Shown here: one piece after another, positions 52,589-64,000 of the stretch
How the letters are laid out: each line of letters opens with the position of its first letter
How positions within the stretch are numbered: the stretch's first letter is position 1
NCBI GenBank assembly: GCA_029204225.1
Contig: CM055102.1
Location: forward strand, 23,281,390-23,345,389
Direction: 5' to 3'
DNA from: Diphasiastrum complanatum
Taxonomy: Eukaryota > Streptophyta > Lycopodiopsida > Lycopodiales > Lycopodiaceae
DNA length: 64,000 nt
Notes under the pieces: model-generated
The model's database searches: none
What the model saw: only the letters and a program-made list of their open reading frames with translations
Told to the model about the DNA's origin: nothing
Made by a program: the position numbers and the translations under genes

Positions 52589-52600
52589 GCTCTGATACCA
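52589..52600 (-). promoter_or_regulatory. tRNA-iMet primer-binding site
   Basis: The minus strand reads TGGTATCAGAGC, an exact plant Copia primer site, directly beside an LTR starting TGTAAAG. Confidence 0.9.
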
Positions 52601-53230
52601 TGTAAAGTTTTTAGAAAGTGTGAACTTCACCACACACCTTACAGGATCTTACTGAGGTGTTGTGATTGCACAAGATTGATCAAAGAACAGTATGCTTGAA
52701 AAATCTAAGGCAAGGGCACAATGGCATACATCTGATCAAAAATCTAACTCTTCACTATGAGAAATGAATGTCAGAAAAAATTCTACGTGTTTAGTATGGG
52801 AAAAAGAGGCTACTCTCGGGTAGAGAGAGAAAATCAAGCATGAATAACTCGGGTAGAGAGAGAATGAGTCCAAAACACCAAAGTCTCAATATTCACAATA
52901 TGGCAAAACATGCCCGCTTTCCCTACATGAGAGAGACTCGAATCCCTATAGTGGAGTTGCATGGAAAGTCCACTTAACTGAACTAATTCACCTACCAGAG
53001 ATCCACATGTGTAACTGCATGCATGTATGCTGCATGTACTGCATGTCAACTCACAAAACTGCCTAGACATGTGTAGATCACTGAAACTACTTTGCATGTT
53101 GCATGCACTGATTGCATGTGGCTTGCATGCATACAGTATGACTTTGCATGTTATCTAAACTATTGCATGTCATCAAAATAGAACCTATCTAACTCAAATC
53201 CGAGCTACACTAGAAGGATATGTGCTCAAT
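52601..53230 (-). mobile_element. Copia 5' LTR (outer end uncertain)
   Basis: Starts TGTAAAGTTTTTAG. It carries CTCGGGTAGAGAGAGA twice (52813 and 52847), as in the 11.7-kb LTR, and a dense cluster of GCATG/CATGCA motifs at 53015-53170. The gag that should follow its primer site is missing; the TTCCA-flanked LTR element lies there instead. Confidence 0.65.
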
Positions 53231-54260: not shown

Positions 54261-55127
54261 CTAAACTAGTTGAATAGTGGCTTGTTTCTTTGACATCCAT
54301 GATATAGCTCCATCACCTATAAAAATACAATAAGCACTTATGGATTTCCTATCCATTTTATCTCCAGCATAGTATGAATCTGAAAATCCAAAAAAGTTAG
54401 ATGATGATCCCTCACACAATATGCCAAAATCTTGAGTTCCCATGATACACTTCAAAACTCGTTTTCCTAGCTTCCAATGCTCCTCACTAGGATCTTGCAT
54501 GAATTGACTCAATCTTCCAACACAGTAGCTTAGATCTAGTCTAGTAATGGCTAGATAGATGAGTGAACCAACTAGCTTCCTATAGAGAGTAATCTCCTTG
54601 AAGGATCTTTCATTACCTCTTATAGTTAGCTTTACATTTGACCCCATAGGTGTATCACAAGCTTTTGCATCTACCATATGAAATCTTTCTAGAATAGAAT
54701 TAGCATACTTCTCTTGACAAATAAAAGTAAATTGAGAAGATCTGATCACTTCTATTCCTAATATATAATGCAAGTGACACGATCGTGCACCTCAAATTCC
54801 TTCAATAAGAGCACTCTTGATATCCTCCACATCTTGATTGTTTCCACCACTCAAGATGATATCATCCACATAGATTAGCAGTATGGTAATATCATTTCCA
54901 GCAAACCTATAATAAAGTGAATGATCATACTCACTCATAACAAAGCCTTGAGAGAGTAAAAAAGTGTTAAGCTTAGAATACCAACTCCTTGGTGCTAGCT
55001 TAAGGCCATACAAACTCTTTTGTAGTAAACACAAATGCTTTGGCTTTGTAGGTGAAATGTAACTCTCAAGTTGCTCCATTACACTTCCTCCTCAAGATCA
55101 CCATTCAAAAATGCATTTGTAGACATC
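54261..55127 (-). pseudogene. Copia RT and RNase H, 3' part of the split element
   Basis: Minus strand: KSLYGLKLAPRSWYSKLN, NDITILLIYVDDIILSGGNN (YVDD catalytic box intact), HYILGIEVIRSSQFTFICQE, LVGSLIYLAITRLDLSYCVG, then SISAYCIFIGDGAISWMSKK, ending prematurely at QATIQLV. Same family as 1-905. At its upstream end the match stops at TGCATTTGTAGACATCT (55127), beyond which foreign DNA starts. Confidence 0.9.
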
Positions 55128-55300
55128 TGTCACGTGCGAGAATGACACGCGACGATTAGGGATTCGCGCATGTGTCTCAGCCCACGTGGCCTCATAATTG
55201 GGTCATCATTGTCAGTACGGACATTCCACATGGTCTAATCATCTGGCGACACGTGTCTCGTCCGTGTTTTCACACATGCAAAAATTTCGTATATATAAGT
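55128..55300 (+). promoter_or_regulatory. Candidate promoter: three G-boxes and a TATA box
   Basis: CACGTG at 55131, 55183 and 55250, and TATATATAAG at 55290-55299, about 300 bases before the ATG of the H3-protease gene. G-boxes bind bZIP/bHLH factors in plants. Inferred from motif order only. Confidence 0.6.
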
Positions 55301-55604
55301 TGTGTTTTCATTTTTTTCCGCAAAATTTTCACTTTTAGCTCCCGATATTGCTCTCAAGCGCGCTCTTTCATCTTTCAAGCTTCTGCCCTCTCATAGTGCG
55401 GTCAAGTCCGATATCGCCTGTTGTGCAATATCGCTTTCGAGCGCATATCTCTTTTCTGCAAATAATCTTTGTAGATCTTGCGCTCGAAACTGATATTCAG
55501 TGCTGGTATCGATCTCAAGCGCCCTTTCATCGCAAATTTTTTTGTTTTGATCCACTTTTGTTTTGTTCAAACTTCTTTTTGTTAATTTTCTTCTTCCGAG
55601 AATG
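55301..55604 (+). repeat. Leader with three imperfect ATAT(C/T)GCT...AGCGC repeats
   Basis: GATATTGCTCTCAAGCGCGC (about 55344), AATATCGCTTTCGAGCGC (about 55427) and GTATCGATCTCAAGCGCCC (about 55506) recur between TATA box and ATG. Likely untranslated leader. Confidence 0.6.
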
Positions 55605-57700
55605 ATGGCCAGGACCAAATCCACCGCCCGTGCCATCACCACTGTACAACCATCCCATTCTCGTGTTCCTACTGGTACTGGTCGTAGGTGTGACAGGAAG
55701 TAGGTCTGGCTGAGGGAGATCAGAAAACTCCAAAGATCAACTGAATTGTTGATCCCTAGAGCTCCTTTCAGCCGATCTGTATGGAATGTCGCTCTGTCAC
55801 TTGGGCTGGATGTTTGTTTTGCCGTGACAGCCATGTACGGTGCTACAGAAGATTTTCTGTCCTAGTTTTTTGGAGATTCGTGTCTTTTGACAGTGCATGG
55901 TAAGCGTGTCACCATCATGCCAAAGTATTTCGTCATTCTCAAAAGGCTTTGAGACAGATATTATGGTCTGCATGTTGATAATGTCAGCACCTCCAGAGAC
56001 CTGCATCTGGATAGAACCGATTTGCCTACTACCTCTAGGAGGAAGAGAAAGCAGCCTGTCTCCAAGAAGGCTGGATCTCGAAGGCCAGCTGCTTCCCTTC
56101 CTCCTAGAGTTATCCCGACCAAGAGACCCTGTGTCTTCCTGAGCTCTGAGTCAGATGCTGGAGAATCTCACTCAGATCGAGAATCTTCACCCCTTCCTCC
56201 TCCTATTATTCGTCCAGCTCCTTAGCAGGTTTCAACACCAAAAGTGTTGATTACCCAAGAGGAGCTAGACAAAATAGTAGAGAAATATGTAAATATTGTT
56301 TTCACTTCTGTTTCTACTCCTTTACATAATCTTTTTGTGAGAATTCCATACGATCCAGCCCAGGTTTTTTTATATTTTGACCATTATAATCAATACGAGG
56401 CCTACCTAGCTAACAAAATTGATCTTCTTGGCAACTTTTTTTATTTTTTTCTTTCAGATACACGTAGAAGCTTTAGATTAGGTCCCAAATTTTGTGCTGA
56501 GCTAAAAGATAAGACCTCAAAAATTTCAGATGCAATAGTAGAGGCCGGAGTGTTTTTTTTTGCAGAATAATATCAGTTTCGATTCCCATGGTACAGTTTC
56601 TGTAGTTAGTCCATTTTTCATGGGAGCGGTAAAGGCGAAAAAAGCCAATTTTGAGAAGGCTGTCTATTTTATCGAGTGCAGTCCTATGGCAAAATTCTAT
56701 TTGATTCCATATGGAAATAAGTAAGGATTGCTCTTTTGTTTTTGTTGCTTTAATCTGGATTGTTGCATGCCTCATTGCTTTAATAAGAACTAAATTTTTT
56801 TATAAATATGAATTTAACGATATTTGTATCTTGGTTGTTGCAGTCGGCATTGGAGCCTAAACATTCTTTTTGTAAAGATTAATAAGGAGGGAGTATCAAA
56901 TTTTCTATGTGTAAAATTAAACTCAGCTGCAAATACACATAGAGAATTTGTTTTACTACTTCATGATGTCATTCGGAAAATACCGACAATGACAACTTCA
57001 ACTAAGATATAACCATTAAATCTCTCAAGGTATATTCAGTTTACCTCTGATACATGTATTTCTTTTTTAATTCAAATGTATCGTCATATCATAAATAAAA
57101 TTTCTATCATAATATAACTAATTTTCATTCTATGTATGTAGTGTGTACAGCAAAATGACGCTTTTAGTTGTGCATGGTTCGTCCTGTACAATACAAAGCT
57201 ATTTTTTGAATGGTATAATTTACAAACGGATGTAGATATTGAAAAGATGATATTCTATTCATTTGTGGTTCATTTCATTCTGATTTATATTTTATTACTA
57301 TCATTGTTTGTAATCTGCTGATTCTCGTGTTTCGTGATGACGGTTCACTCTTGAGTCGTATACTCCTGATGATGTATATAGATTTCGGCAAGAGTTGATC
57401 AGAACCTTTGCCCAGTACGGTGTAAGCGTTGCACCTGCAATCGAGGGCCCTCAAAAGGAAGCTGCTCCTGCCTTAACAGCCTTTCAGGTTGTTCAGGATG
57501 CAGATCTTATTTTATATGATCAAAAAGAAATAAAAGTCCTTCCTAATACAAAGGCAGGCAATTTTGTAGCAGATATTCCTCTTGCCTTAAAAGACATTGA
57601 GGCCCTTCTCGAAACAGAGGAGGGCGAGATTATAGAAGGACATGTTGCTTTATCAGTTCCTAATACTGATATAGAAAATATAGAAAAATTGATTGAATAG
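55605..57700 (+). pseudogene. Histone H3-like domain fused to Ulp1/C48-type cysteine protease
   Basis: Start chosen at the second of two adjacent ATGs, giving ARTKSTAR, an H3-like tail. Codons 33-116 follow histone H3: LREIRKLQRSTELLI, PFSR, TAMYGATEDFLS, FFGDSC, HGKRVTIMPK. A basic stretch (RRKRKQPVSKKAGSRR) and a Ser/Pro/Glu-rich linker follow, then a protease: VVSPFF, KFYLIPYGNNRHWSLNILF (catalytic His, codon 56848), QQNDAFSCAWFVLYN (catalytic Gln and Cys; Cys codon 57169), and SYTPDDVYRFRQELIRTF, the C-terminal helix. The position of the catalytic Asp reads KLNSAAN. Intron 56721-56843 has GTAAGG and TTGCAG ends; others are less certain (57030-57150, about 57212-57335). Stops at 55701, 55863, 55950, 56223 and 57010, plus a frame change in the T-run at 56553-56561, inactivate it. 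Ulp1 enzymes remove SUMO-like modifiers. Domain calls are strong; a single gene is inferred from frame continuity. Confidence 0.8.
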
Positions 57701-58035
57701 AGATCTATTTGTAAATAGAGAGACATAAACAAAAGATACAATCATTTTACTTGTAAACAATCCATTTATGGGTTTTTTTTATTGATATCACAATAGATTC
57801 TTACAATCAGCTTGTGTCCATAGTCTAATAATGGAATACAATTTTCCTATAATGATAAAAAGACATTGACATGTATTTGCTGATAGTGAATCTCAATGTT
57901 CTTCCGTAAGTTGGATTGTTTTGCCAATATCTCTACATTTGATCTCGAGCTCATGTCTTTTACGTAACTGCATAAAACTACTACAAAGTTAGTTAGAATT
58001 AGTACAGAGTTTGTATTAGAAAGTTTTGATTGAAA

Positions 58036-59364
58036 CTATTCATAACAGATCGAGTGTTTACAATTACTTGCAAGTTTACCATTGAAAATGAATCTGAAGT
58101 CTGAAAGTACATCATCTTGTAGGAGCAATAGTTCTTGCCGGACGTAGTTTAGACTCCAATCTTCCTCAACCTCAACACATGTCAAAACAGCATCATTGTA
58201 TATAATTTCAATATATTTTCGTTTTGAATGTCCACTGGCTTTCAAGTCTTGATCAAGTGGCACCCATTTACCTTTATTTTTTTCCATCTTTGATAATGGA
58301 AGCATAAGCTCAACATTTGTTTTTCAATTTGATAACGGAAGCACATGGAAGACATTTTAATTCTGCATTCTATTTCTCCATCTGATCTTTTGTCCCAACC
58401 TTCATCCATAAGTTCAAATAATAAACTATCTAATAAATTTTTGCATACAAACATCGTTGGGGTTTTGTGTACATTGACACTTATATATTCAAGGAAATAA
58501 ATCAACTCAATCTGATTGTTTTTTATCTCGTGCTCATTTTAATGAGTTTTTTATATCATTATATATCTTGCAACAAAATGATTCTAAAACTGTAGCATCT
58601 GGTGCAATCCATTCATAACTTTCAAAACTAGGTAATGGAATTGATACTATTTGTCCAAAATTTTCTTTTGTATCAGGAATGTACATTAATTTATAAAAAA
58701 AGATTCCACTATCAGCTAGATCTTTGCAGTTCTACCTTGATATTGTAGTTGTCCAATTTCAGTGTGAATAACATCTAACACACCTGCTAAAGATCCACTC
58801 GGCTCTCATTCATTTATATTGGATGGATATAAATCCGCAAGAGAAAAATGATCAGATTAGCACGTTTACTATTAGATATTTATGAATGACAAAAATCAAA
58901 GTATCAAAAATATCAATACTCACAGTTGTTTTTTTTGTAATCCTGACGGTTGAATCCTTGCACATTTATCTCTGAATGCATATATACATATTGGACTAGG
59001 GTTTTAGAAATAGATTTTCCTCCTAATGATGTTCTAAAATCCAAAATTCTGTCCTTCCAATAAGATCGAAATAATAGTTTTGACCTTTTTCTTTTTCGAA
59101 ATTCTCCTCTTGATGATGGATGCATCAAAACCCAAGAGTTTTTTGAATATTTTCTTGGCACCCATAATCCATTATCATCTGTCTCGTTGAATAGAAGAAC
59201 AGAGTCGATTGAGGAGCACGGCTTCCTTGATGGCACCATTCGTAATTTGCATGCAAAAATCTGAAACAATAAACTATGAATCTGAAAATTCGCGTAGACA
59301 AAAAGCCATGAATTTGAGAAAAAGTGTTGGCAAAAATTTGAAACATTGATCTATTTGACGCCAC
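58036..59364 (-). pseudogene. Broken multi-exon gene with ubiquitin-like C-terminal segment
   Basis: Minus strand, convergent with the H3-protease gene (about 340 bases between ends). An exon at about 59260-58924 follows a TTGTTTCAG acceptor and ends at GTGAGT; it contains LWVPRKYSKNSWVLMHPSSR and RSYWKDRILDFRTSLGGKS. A second stretch (about 58850-58530) has GVLDVIHTEIGQLQYQGRT and LMYIPDTKENFGQIVSIPL with FESYEWIAPDATVLESF, broken by TGA/TAG stops and a shift. The last part (58305-58036) has KRKYIEIIYNDAVLTCVEVE, WSLNYVRQELLLLQDDVL and FRFIFNGKLAS, whose pattern resembles a ubiquitin-like fold (weak). I do not know the family. A TATA-like TATAAATAAAATAAAA and an ATTGG (CCAAT) lie upstream at 59510-59640. 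Confidence 0.5.
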
Positions 59365-59690
59365 AAATTAGCTCTAGTTATCCCTATTAACCATGGTTTG
59401 ACAATGCATATACATTAATGGTACATCGATTATCTCATCTCAACCATCTGTCATATTCATTTTCAATATTTTTGGGTCTCTTTGGGCAGTGATGAGCTGG
59501 AAGGGCAGGCCTCATCAACCAATAGCATTTCTACATGTTGTCCGATGAAACAACAATATATTTAAAAAGTTTTTATTTTATTTATATTTGGAAAATTCTA
59601 AGTTCCGTAGAACCCCGAAGCTGAGGTTTTAATTGGTCCACATGGCAACAATAAGAAAAATAATAAAAAAGCATCTTTTTCAAAGGCCCT
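59365..59690. other. Probable upstream region of the minus-strand gene and junction to Copia
   Basis: Contains two CCAAT boxes and an A/T-rich TATA-like stretch on the minus strand. The right edge, about 59690, abuts Copia gag. No terminal inverted repeat matching the left edge at 55128 was found. Confidence 0.4.
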
Positions 59691-59692
59691 CG

Positions 59693-60206
59693 TCAGGCTC
59701 TAAGTTTCTCTAATGCTTGATCTTGCCCTTTAGACCACTTACTTTTGCTTTTGCCCTTGAATTTGCCCTTGATGAACATAGCCTCCTCTCCAACTTGAGA
59801 TGTTGATGAAGATCCACCTCTTTCTTGAAGCCTATATTCTTCATTGATCAAGATCTCTTGAAGATCAATCAAACTTGGCAAAGTCTTTTGAATAGCAAGA
59901 CTTTGAACAATGTTAGCATGAGCATCCAACAATCCTTTAAGAATAACTTGAACAAGCTCTCCTTCCTTAATGCTCTCATCAATGCAAGCCAATGCTTTCA
60001 CTCTCAAGATAAAAGTATTTGGACTTTCTTCATTCTTTTGAAAACAAGAAAAGATTTTTCTTCTTAGAATAAACACTCTAGATGTAGACTTGGATTCATA
60101 AAGAAACTAGATTTTGGTGTAGAATCCAATCTATCATGCTCTAACATTGATATCTTCTCCAAATCATTGATAAATGTGAATGCTTCCTTCATAACATGAA
60201 ACACAG
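59693..60206 (-). pseudogene. Copia Gag, 5' part of the split element
   Basis: Minus strand: MFILRRKIFSCFQKNEESPN, LRVKALACIDESIKEGELVQ, VILKGLLDAHANIVQSL, LPSLIDLQEILINEEYRLQE, then GKFKGKSKSKWSKGQ, a Copia Gag of the UBN2 type. The N-terminus up to the leader is frame-shifted, and the zinc knuckle, which should follow, is missing at the junction with the foreign DNA. Confidence 0.85.
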
Positions 60207-60218
60207 GCTCTGATACCA
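60207..60218 (-). promoter_or_regulatory. tRNA-iMet primer-binding site
   Basis: TGGTATCAGAGC on the minus strand, exact plant Copia site, next to the LTR start TGTGAAAG. Confidence 0.9.
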
Positions 60219-60326
60219 TGTGAAAGTTTTTGGATCAATTAAGATCCAAACCTACAAAATGATCTTGGGTTAGAAAGACAAGCAACTCACCAATCTTGCC
60301 AATGTAGAAAAACCAACATCTACACT
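60219..60326 (-). mobile_element. Truncated 5' LTR of the split Copia
   Basis: 108 bases matching 53665-53770. Beyond 60326 the two LTRs no longer match, so this LTR is cut short by the next element. Confidence 0.8.
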
Positions 60327-60935
60327 ATGAATGAGATGAAAACTCTAATAGATATTGATCATGTTGGTGAAACCATCGGCCGAACAATCAGATCTTTACT
60401 AAGGAAGCCGAGTATTCCGGATTAGGTGACATTCTTGGTTGGGGCTCAGATGGAGCCGATCTGTCGGCAAAGCTACTAATCTGACAATGAGTTTATGGAC
60501 AACAGGTAATGTCTAATGACAGCGGAAGTATATCTACTGACAAAATGAATAACCATCACAATATTCAGAGATTGCACATTGAGCAGAAAAATGTAACTCG
60601 TCTATATTATCAAAAATCGAGTGTACATCAGAAGCTCTTTCTTGAGCGTTGTCTATTTCTCAGATCAATGCATCGGTGTAAGAGAGGTGTTCTCTTCTCA
60701 TGAATGGAACTAGCTAATGCTAGAATTATCTTACTTTCTTGATACACATCTCACTGAGTGTTGCGTTCCAGATTCTCTTCTCATCATTATCTATGCATGT
60801 CTATCCAATACATATATCATATTGGATTGGACTACAAGATTTGATTAGCTAAAAGTTTAGCTAAATGGTCATTAACTATTTCGTTGTTAACGTTGCATGG
60901 AGGCAATGGATCATGGTAGTTTAAAAACTTCACGC
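60327..60935. other. Degenerate element DNA, unassigned
   Basis: No clean domain. The minus strand keeps a fairly open frame (such as PLPPCNVNNEIVNDHL) that continues from the adjoining Copia piece, but it matches no Copia motif I know. Confidence 0.35.
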
Positions 60936-61607
60936 TCAAGTAGTTGAGGTCTGATAGTTCGTCCATGCCCGATGTGTTGTCTTGAACTTAGCTTGTGGAT
61001 GTCCGATTAGTCGGCATAGCCCAATAGATAGAACTGCCTTGATCCATTTGTCCTTGTCTAGACAGTTGGTGGCTTCTTCGTAAGTTTGTGGTTCACCGCT
61101 GAATCCATAGAATTCTTCTTGAGTAGAAGATGAGATGTTAGGTATATATCTGACTGGTGCTCTTCTTTGTCTTGCAGATCTTTTTGGAGATATTACAGGC
61201 TCAGCAACTGCTTTCCCTTTGTCTTGTCTATTGGCAGCAGAGCTTCGGTGTGTCGTAGGTGTTCTGAACACTTCCGATGTATCGGTTTGCTCGTCGTCCG
61301 AACTATTGTTCAATCTATTTGAAATTTGAACATCTTCATCTGGATGTTCAGGGTCTGCTCCCTCTGTCGATGTGGGTAGGTCATAGTATTGTCTGCTGAG
61401 AACTTCATAGCTGATCGGATCTTCCTCAGCCATTGTTCTTGTCTCGTCAAATCTGACATCTCTAATAGTCTTTACTTTGTTGGTTTGAGGCATGTATACT
61501 TTGTAATATGTAGAATGTATATTATAGCCAACCAAAAATCCTTGCCCTACTTTTTCGTTCAGCCGGGCTGTTTGGGAATGCAGCCCTAAGCGGGTGGTAA
61601 ATTCCAT
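60936..61607 (-). pseudogene. Copia integrase C-terminus to RT start
   Basis: Minus strand: GFLVGYNIHSTYYKVYMPQT with KVKTIRDVRFDE (integrase C-terminal Copia signature), an acidic Ser/Thr-rich spacer, RSARQRRAPVRYIP, then TYEEATNCLDKDKWIKA (start of RT). The RT body is absent after WIKA. On the other side it joins the untranslated leader directly, so gag, protease and the integrase core were deleted. Confidence 0.85.
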
Positions 61608-61642
61608 CCAAGGCTAAATACGGGCTGTTGATGGATGTATCA

Positions 61643-61654
61643 GCTCTGATACCA
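61643..61654 (-). promoter_or_regulatory. tRNA-iMet primer-binding site
   Basis: Minus-strand TGGTATCAGAGC, exact Copia site, one base from the LTR. Confidence 0.9.
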
Positions 61655-61655
61655 C

Positions 61656-62235
61656 TGTAGGAAAAATACTAGGAATTCTTCTTCAGAAAACAAGATGAAA
61701 GTTCGAATAAATCAAACTAATATCAGTGTCTTCAATTGTGTTTGATTCTAGTCTATGCACTAATAGAGTAATTTCTACTTTGATTAAATAAAACATGTGG
61801 ATTTAGGAGATATATGTGTGAGTGTGATAGACAATTTTAGATAATCAGAACAACTGAAAAAAAATCATCTATTGCAAACTTTGATCAATCGAATTTTTAT
61901 AATTCTGATTTTGATTCTTTTGTTACATCTCTTGCTACCTTGTACATATAATGAGTAAGTGAACATGTATTTATATTGTCACAAGATAGGTCTTTTGGCC
62001 TTCTTCCTTTTGTAACAGTCGATCTAACCGTTAAGACGATTGATATAAAATAACGTTATGTTTTAGAGTTCGTTTATTTTTCGAGTTCAAATAAAGTTCA
62101 AACAAGAATAAAGTTCGAGTTCAAATAAAGTTCGAACAAGAATAACAATGTTTTGAGTTCGGTTTCTCAGCCTTTGTCAATTAGACTATGCACTTTGTTG
62201 GTAGAACCGAGATTTGTCTGTGGAGGTGTTCTACA
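61656..62235 (-). mobile_element. Copia 5' LTR
   Basis: Starts TGTAGGAAAAATAC and can end at TTCTACA (62235), giving inverted TGTAG/CTACA termini; 580 bases. Contains a short tandem AATAAAGTTCGA(G/A) repeat at 62091-62148. The matching 3' LTR was not found. Confidence 0.6.
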
Positions 62236-62936
62236 GGTGTTGCTACTATATGAGAAACACAATGATTATGTCTACCATTTTGTATGCAACGATTTCATAA
62301 AAAGTCATGTACTCTAGTTTTACATGTGTGAGAAGACCATGTCAACTTTACTTACAGCTTTGGCCTCAATTAGGCCTCGGATAATCAAAATAACTAAATA
62401 CTAGTTGAAAATTTTCATACTTCTACGTAACTACTTTCCCGACAATGGCACCCAACTTTTGGGTTTTGACATTCTACGAGTAAATTTTTTTTGAGTTTTG
62501 CGAGTTTCTACCCATGATCCCACAAAATGGTAGCACATGGTGTGCTACTCGTTTTATGCCACTACATGATTTTTGAAAAATAAGGCCTCCAAATTCTTTT
62601 TCAATTGGTGTATTTTTTCCTTTTCAAAGGTGGCATCACCACTTGAGTATATTTAGTGGAGCACAATTTGCTTACATGACAATGTGCAAAGCTACCAAAC
62701 AACATTTGTTACAAAACTGTAAAGGAAAATTGCTATATTTTCTGTCCATCTTTCAGCTTCCTTAAAAAGCAAAATGGGCACCCCACCGTTTTCAAGGGTG
62801 ATTATGTTTGCAGATGCAAATTCTGCTTCATAATGGTCCTATGAAAAAAGCACAATCTAAAACATTGATTATGTTTTCCAAATGAAGATTCTACTACATA
62901 ATGGTCATGTGAAAAAGCAGCCATTATCCTTACGCA

Positions 62937-63032
62937 TTGGAATGAGCCCGGCAGATGACATTCTGCCCGGTAAAGAATCATGGTCTAGGCACTATCTACT
63001 GAGCAAAATGTCATTTGCCCAGCTCATTCCAT
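62937..63032. repeat. 96-base hairpin (inverted repeat)
   Basis: Left arm 62937-62972 and right arm 62997-63032, about 36 bases each and roughly 80 percent complementary (GGAATGAGCCCGGCAGATGA against TCATTTGCCCAGCTCATTCC), with a 24-base loop. Each arm is itself partly palindromic around TGACATT. Confidence 0.8.
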
Positions 63033-64000
63033 AGTACATTATCATCAAACAATAGCCAACATAAAAACTCATATCACAATATGCCATATTACCTATATGC
63101 ATAAATACTACATGGAGTTTTCAGATCAATAACTATAATTTAGACAATTCATAGTAAACTTGCCACACCTCTTCTAAAACTCAATGGTATTTTTTCATTT
63201 CAATCATTCTTAGATTGCACCATAGAAGATCAGGGGACTTTCTTTAAGCTCATTTTCTAAGGCAGCAAAGATTAGTAATACATTAGTCTTGAAGTGTCTT
63301 CTTCCTTCAAAACCTGTAGCCGTGAGGTCCTGAAACAAATGTGATGTAGATTATGAAATGATAGAACCATTAAGAAGAGATCCATTGGGAAAGTTACGAA
63401 ATTCAATACAGATGGCTTATGGCGAACTTTCTTAAAAATAAGATCAATATGGATGTTGGTTCGCACCTGGCATTTTCATTGGGAAACAAATCCAATTCCA
63501 GAAAGGATTGTTCATGGAACTTTGAAAATTACGTCCCATGATGAATCTTGAACTCCATAGAGACTTTGGAGGATATTGCATCTTGTCATAATATCCTTCA
63601 AAGTTCATGCTAGAAGGCTGGTCATCTTTCCAACACATGTAATCTCATTTTTAACATTGTGATGCCTCCCACAGATTCCATACCTCCCACAGCAGAATCT
63701 GTGCGAGAAAATAATTTATGGCAAAAAACTTTACATGCACCTTCCGATTGCTGGAAGGTACACATACAAAAATTTACCATTTCTTTACAGGCACCTTCCA
63801 CCCAAAAGGTGCATGCCAAAAAAAGAGAAATTACGTCAGGGAAGGACGCTTCCTCGGTCAGTTCCGCCCAGGGATGGGCGCCCTGGGGCTGGGCAGAAGG
63901 TTCTGGGAGGACTGAAAACGAATCAAAGAACTATAAAGTTTTGGATGAGTAATGGAGTAAACTCTGGAACACAATTATGAACGTTTACAAAGCGTAGTAG
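63033..64000. other. No recognisable gene
   Basis: Short frames without domains. GCACCTTCC recurs (63737, 63791) and a locally GC-rich stretch lies at 63866-63910. Confidence 0.4.

Follow-up and report, generated by a model that had tools for sequence, protein, structure and literature searches.

In the window, the whole stretch of 64,000 nucleotides of clubmoss (Diphasiastrum complanatum) DNA analysed here, lies a copy of a gene that joins a histone H3-like fold to a domain resembling the Ulp1/C48 proteases. The features of this copy and of the mobile element around it are as follows.

55122..59715, plus strand: 5'-truncated transposon copy, in copia debris with RT on the left and gag on the right, both on the minus strand
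55605..55961, plus strand: H3-like fold with ARTK tail and Ala at position 9; stops at 55701, 55863 and 55950
55962..56225, plus strand: basic/acidic linker; stop at 56223
56229..56562, plus strand: N-domain, of unknown fold, in the H3 frame
56563..56720, plus strand: remainder of exon 1, the first protease piece; in the window copy, one base out of register with the H3 frame
56721..56843, plus strand: intron 1, GT-AG; splice sites common to relatives
56844..57029, plus strand: exon 2, carrying HW; interrupted by a stop in the window copy
57142..57246, plus strand: exon 3, with QQNDAFSC; donor 3' of the exon altered in the window copy
57344..57700, plus strand: exon 4, C-terminal tail; acceptor altered in the window copy; 79% identity over 75 residues to O6H91_Y440400
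58036..59350, minus strand: second gene of the element, decayed, family unknown; present in relatives
59694..59715, plus strand: 3' terminus ...GGCTCTAAGTTTCTCTAATG; 0-2 mismatches over 22 bases in 10/17 sequences

The H3 fold is certain. With X placed at its three stops, the window copy matches PF00125 with an E value of 2.8e-16 (60.3 bits, cut-off 26.4), and its H3 part matched histone H3 chains in a PDB search (6.6e-16), which bears out the H3-like ARTK tail and H3 fold named in a preliminary description made from the letters alone. The frame from 55602 to 56562 contains 4 stops, against a mean of 17.7 and a minimum of 7 in 2000 dinucleotide shuffles, and because these are far fewer than in the shuffles, the H3 part, the linker and the next domain once formed one reading frame. 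Near 56562, ahead of the first protease exon, the H3 frame of the window copy shifts by one base, and of the catalytic motifs HW lies in exon 2, after intron 1, and QQND in exon 3, after intron 2. The basic linker followed by HW and QQN...C motifs was thus rightly described, with the two motifs in separate exons, but the claim of a passage from histone to protease without any frame change does not hold for this copy. The exon border placed earlier at 56720/56844 was correct, with a donor AATAA/GTAAGG and an acceptor TTGCAG/TCGGCATTGG (slash at the border) that both recur in relatives. Stops, frame shift and altered splice sites agree with the inactivation already noted, and the window holds a dead copy of the fusion gene.

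Open copies were found elsewhere in the same genome (1.74 Gb, 5176 contigs). A search with the 319-residue read-through of window 55602-56562, covering H3 part, linker and N-domain, gave 125 matches, the window included, when the best 125 of 9423 candidates were scored. The 124 matches outside the window share 72-85% identity with the query; all 125 scored matches lie in one frame, starting at or before residue 47 and ending at or after residue 281 of 319, and in 15 of the 125 the matched part is free of stops. These 125 do not equal as many independent insertions, since some are near-identical duplicates (e.g. L014-L016), perhaps haplotigs. The H3 frame continues into the first protease exon in 22 of 29 loci (L005-L033, near-identical loci counted) and differs in seven, so that the continuity of frame described earlier stands for the 22 but not for the seven. 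In L040, four exons joined at three GT-AG introns give a product of 590 residues with zero stops, in the order H3 fold, basic linker, N-domain, HW...QQNDxFxC domain and tail; the L037 product, joined likewise, retains one stop and that of the window several, and the splice sites were found again in other copies, some of them altered. Among sixteen 10-kb loci, open exon-1 frames of 369-376 aa that end at the common exon-1 end are present in L035, L036, L037, L040 and L042, five loci that include the near-identical pair L035 and L036, and L041 has an exon-1 frame of 369 residues whose end lies off frame. With the protease half as query, the best 138 of 9445 candidates scored gave 405 matches; for 17 of the 129 C-terminal matches listed, the list from the H3 query shows a same-strand H3 match 0-3 kb upstream, and for none does it show an opposite-strand H3 match at a distance of up to 5 kb. 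The fusion, judged by these reading frames, is real, and has open copies elsewhere in the genome; intact relatives, which the preliminary description called for, hold the two parts in one gene rather than always as separate genes, and its other feared outcome, no match to either Pfam model, is countered by the strong PF00125 match.

The gene sits in a DNA transposon with common ends, in line with the earlier suggestion that it might serve a transposon, and we regard a fusion gene in a transposon as very nearly assured. Against sixteen 10-kb loci, the window is homologous to other copies from 55122 to about 59715, and a copia match over 54578-55121 stops at 55121, adjoining the element start. 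The 3' terminus is carried by the window and 9/16 loci, two of these ten being near-identical, and falls outside the fetched stretch in the other 7. The 5' end, CATTAGAGAAAATATGGGCCC, was located at L050:4717. A DNA-level search with the 5' region gave at least 82 matches from the best 40 of 8735 candidates; 34 of these matches begin within the same three bases, and 7/7 loci read from 5'-end matches begin with CATTAGAGA. The element ends read CATTAG...CTAATG and form an inverted repeat, perfect over 11 bases and imperfect over about 44, whose alignment score is not above shuffles (42 versus a maximum of 57) but which is credited because both arms sit exactly at the element ends. For the window copy, which is without the 5' end, comparison of 55120-55330 with 57400-64000 gave no inverted repeat better than in shuffled sequence (score 31 versus a maximum of 39). 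The L050/L037 copy is 9920 bp long (an element of ~9.9 kb), and near window 52667 its flanks, TTGTGCA and ATCACAACACC, follow one another directly, neither separated nor repeated, an empty site that shows no target-site duplication for this one copy and that, in our reading, lies in an LTR-like repeat. Two empty versions of the L037 insertion site were seen, at window about 52600-52730 (minus strand) and at L043:600-740.

To the left of the H3 gene lie plus-strand ORFs and then minus-strand ORFs, and to its right another minus-strand gene. The plus-strand ORFs, which we take to be transposase-like (LKLDESEI, GDLK, CLYCMK, LHAEVRNIEK), matched no convincing Pfam family, with no hAT Pfam match in the broken ORF pieces tried, and no convincing Pfam family was found for the minus-strand gene at 58036..59350 either. 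The hAT elements carry a hAT transposase/dimerisation domain and make an 8-bp duplication. Helitrons end in CTRR followed by T and lack an inverted repeat; a Helitron reading of the 3' end was dropped because the 5' end was found, the ends carrying CATTAGAGAAA inverted, with TG after CTAA in 10/10 ends. A ubiquitin-like reading of minus-strand 58036-58323, as a partner for the protease, was likewise rejected, with no family matched (best E 0.59). In L047 (1927-2550/2555-3181), and also in L042 and L044, a stretch of about 530-630 bases immediately 5' of the H3 gene is directly duplicated, the blocks being 75-88% identical; this duplication was not found in L037 and L048. A minus-strand frame at L043:1-606 is 42% identical to the 3' minus-strand gene of the element, a sign of a distant subfamily beside the L043 copy.

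The histone part is well kept at its core. PF00125 gave 82.6 bits in L037 and 69.0 bits (5.5e-19) in L040, against the cut-off of 26.4, and in the motif HGKRVTIMPKD the residues H113, K115, V117, T118 and I119 are retained in 31/31 aligned rows and D123 in 27/31, with Tyr in the window. The core of the window copy has 3 residues fewer than most other aligned rows. By eye, the tail is shorter than that of canonical H3; Lys4 is kept in 28 of the 30 rows with letters, and residue 9 is Ala in 29 of these 30, the remaining row having Val, so that a conserved tail with both Lys4 and Lys9 is not what the family has, Lys9 being present in 0/30. In CENH3, loop 1 is longer than in H3; the loop 1 of L037 and L040 has H3 length, again by eye. 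Structure prediction, which had been proposed for both parts, covered the exon-1 product and gave a histone-like order of helices in poor models (mean pLDDT 67.5 and 49.0, the second with block means of 82-89 only at residues 81-120); the models may match the histone fold by this order, with low confidence, and Foldseek gave no match to them at E 0.001 or better.

The identity of the second domain is less clear. PF02902 was the only family matched in 8/8 copies (best E 0.0012), these copies being 85-90% identical to the first and hence not independent, and the scores, where given, were 12.9-16.5 bits, all under the cut-off of 20.7, with 16.5 bits for the window. Of eight shuffled or reversed controls, three matched something at E 1, one of them another family at 0.0014. 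The 425-aa spliced piece of L037 had no PF02902 match at E 1, the PF02902 model run against the whole genome found 3 matches and none in this gene family (best 150 of 520 candidates, exon by exon), hhalign against the genome's own C48 protein, L001, did not reach significance (score 15.8 against a maximum of 26.0 for shuffles), and PDB searches with the protease-like domain matched nothing. On the other side, HW and QQNDxFxC are present in most copies read, and the stretch matched by PF02902 spans HW and QQxxxxxC with the Q-to-C spacing of QQENGYDC in L001. In the copies read, the place of the Ulp1 catalytic Asp is apparently taken by Val or Lys (aligned by eye against L001 and Ulp1), and a later Asp in REFDSL, Val in the window, has no clear match to it. 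L001 (G000:C5:76129325) is a C48 host gene, the top PF02902 match among those scored in the genome (1.5e-9), and presumably resembles NEDP1/SENP8. The HMMER check proposed earlier therefore came out well above the cut-off for the histone and below it for the protease, and of the Ulp1/C48 protease claimed in the preliminary description the motifs, their order and spacing and the sole family stand, without backing from the cut-off, the controls, hhalign or PDB. We call the second domain C48-like, a weak likeness read from sequence, and do not assign it to C48; a C48-like fold is probable, and catalytic activity is somewhat doubtful.

Selection across copies was estimated from an alignment of 31 rows, drawn from 35 loci and the window after five near-identical rows had been dropped before counting. 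The median pairwise dN/dS was 0.48 for the tail, 0.53 for the H3 core, 0.98 for the linker and 0.70 for the N-domain, and N/S ratios against a null that keeps the mutation types and CpG context of each pair (200 random pairs) were 0.71, 0.75, 1.18 and 0.95, respectively. The H3 ratios are mildly below neutral, and those of linker and N-domain are about neutral. When singletons were compared with variants in at least 3 copies (28 rows, three further close relatives dropped), N/S in the H3 part was 100/39 versus 45/36 (Fisher p 0.018), a modest value for one of three regions in rows that were picked for high score and are not independent; in the linker it was 67/28 versus 36/14 (p 1.0), and in the N-domain 82/34 versus 36/22 (p 0.30), with the N-domain variants in exactly two rows going in the opposite direction (31/3). 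We read these ratios as mild constraint on the H3 part during the spread of copies. Stop-free rows number 13/31. Stops occur at 19 alignment codons (L005-L046 and the window), 11 of them common to 2-5 rows with the same stop, 10/11 TAG, and several align, at the level of residues, with Gln in other copies. The common stops could be hot spots, for instance where methylated CAG sites changed from C to T more than once, which would be a trace of silencing, or could come from broken copies that spread in trans, without a working gene.

The H3 Lys9 mark is used against plant transposons. We propose that the four exons, encoding H3-like fold, basic linker, N-domain, C48/Ulp1-like domain and tail, form an accessory gene of the element, whose H3 part would dock the protein on chromatin by pairing with H4 or entering nucleosomes, and whose protease-like part might there trim a ubiquitin-like modifier or the protein itself, so that the chromatin of the element would escape silencing. 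A chromatin-directed, possibly anti-silencing, accessory gene of a transposon is the best explanation overall, with a probability of about 0.5. The anti-silencing role on its own is tentative and less likely than not: a tail without Lys9 fits an escape from silencing because it cannot carry H3K9 methylation, and this escape is suggested both by the Lys9 mark having no place on the tail and by the Ulp1-bearing accessory proteins of plant transposons. In its fullest and rather improbable form, the proposal is that the transposon's own H3, which cannot be methylated at Lys9 and keeps Lys4, would enter or mimic nucleosomes on element DNA, where the protease-like domain would strip SUMO or another ubiquitin-like mark, and silencing would be escaped.

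An inert H3 fragment, captured in frame with the transposon's own protease-like gene and carried as passive cargo, could account for the near-neutral change of linker and N-domain and for the stops in most rows, and gene capture is common in plant transposons, according to the part of PMC13317346 available to us. Such cargo is nevertheless rather unlikely, since the H3 part is present in 125/125 scored copies (though the choice of query biases this set), keeps the histone core residues H113, K115 and D123 at the frequencies given above, and shows the strongest constraint within the gene. A somewhat greater, though still minor, chance attaches to the second domain having another fold, or being a dead C48 relative that merely binds a partner: the weak PF02902 scores with an equally strong control, the unmatched L037 piece, the genome search that missed the family, the hhalign result and the lack of an acid at the expected position (by eye) speak for it, whereas the sole family in 8/8 non-independent copies and a matched stretch covering HW and QQxxxxxC, with the spacing of L001, speak for a C48-like domain.

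Polyprotein-maturing proteases are common in mobile elements, and the protease-like part might cut the fusion and free a transposon-encoded H3-like histone; the well-kept histone core motif and freely varying linker would suit such self-processing, but a linker may vary for other reasons, and we consider it unlikely. That the locus is a host gene, or two adjoining pseudogenes of H3 and Ulp1, could be thought from the window alone, with its stops, frame change and introns between the parts. It is highly improbable in view of the 125 scored dispersed copies with common ends and one empty site, and of the common introns and open full-length copy; the two pseudogenes in particular were rejected on the one-frame relatives, the frame agreement in 22/29 loci and the 590 aa of L040. 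The accessory-gene reading remains our preferred one, and the existence of open copies makes its role accessible to testing.

Against 5.8 billion proteins (5191 candidates), the sole relative of the protease half was O6H91_Y440400 of D. complanatum, which ends in exon 4 of the transposon gene, the region of 79% identity over 75 residues listed above. This annotated host protein (P0041) is probably a chimeric gene model or an exonised copy. The whole conceptual protein gave 40 matches in the protein database, each with a histone Pfam domain and a coverage of 17-29%, and no intact relative among them; H3 plus linker gave 87 matches, none covering more than 59% of the query. In the literature searched (open-licence papers), we found neither a transposon-borne H3-Ulp1 fusion nor the Lys9 substitution described.

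A hAT transposon carrying a histone H3-like gene (H3L, 26 copies) has been described in Pyrenophora tritici-repentis, and this H3L matches neither H3 nor CenH3 completely, according to the part of the source at hand (PMC3538342). The likeness to the clubmoss element extends to a DNA transposon with inverted-repeat ends, a divergent H3-like gene between them and many copies, and because this H3L has already been described, the novelty of histone capture as such is lowered. The Pyrenophora element, as that part of the source presents it, is however a fungal hAT of 5.6/2.3 kb with a stand-alone H3L (PMC3538342), whereas the clubmoss H3 forms one protein with a protease-like domain, and the broken pieces tried of the transposase-like ORFs gave no hAT Pfam match; in the main text of PMC3538342, as far as available, the words 'ulp1' and 'protease' each occur 0 times.

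Accessory proteins acting against silencing are also known in plant transposons, one group having Ulp1 domains (PMC13317346, PMC5735166 and PMC10398659, each seen in part). In the MULE/VANDAL elements of Arabidopsis, KIU/Kaonashi, with an Ulp1 domain, and VANC are accessory proteins tied to the hypomethylation of related elements, going by the excerpts of PMC13317346 and PMC5735166. These resemble the present gene, by description in those excerpts, as accessory proteins of plant DNA transposons with an Ulp1 or Ulp1-like domain, and differ in that 'histone' occurs 0 times in the available text of PMC13317346 and that the clubmoss transposase-like ORFs have no convincing Pfam family. Ulp1 domains have further been described in Ginger1 and MULE elements, Ginger1 with Ulp1 or OTU domains (PMC2836005, available in part). 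Ginger1 is alike in that a eukaryotic DNA transposon encodes an Ulp1 domain, which on the same partial source (PMC2836005) lies at the C-terminus of the transposase, unlike the clubmoss Ulp1-like domain, which follows an H3 fold in a gene distinct from that of the transposase. Transposon Ulp1 domains and, in one fungus, a transposon H3-like gene are thus already known. If the H3 part of the clubmoss gene is inert, it is still a clear in-frame histone capture that has spread to many copies; a single transposon protein that joins both, with an H3 tail lacking the silencing lysine, would, if the reading is true, be histone mimicry by a transposon and would connect mobile elements with nucleosome marks in a direct and testable way.
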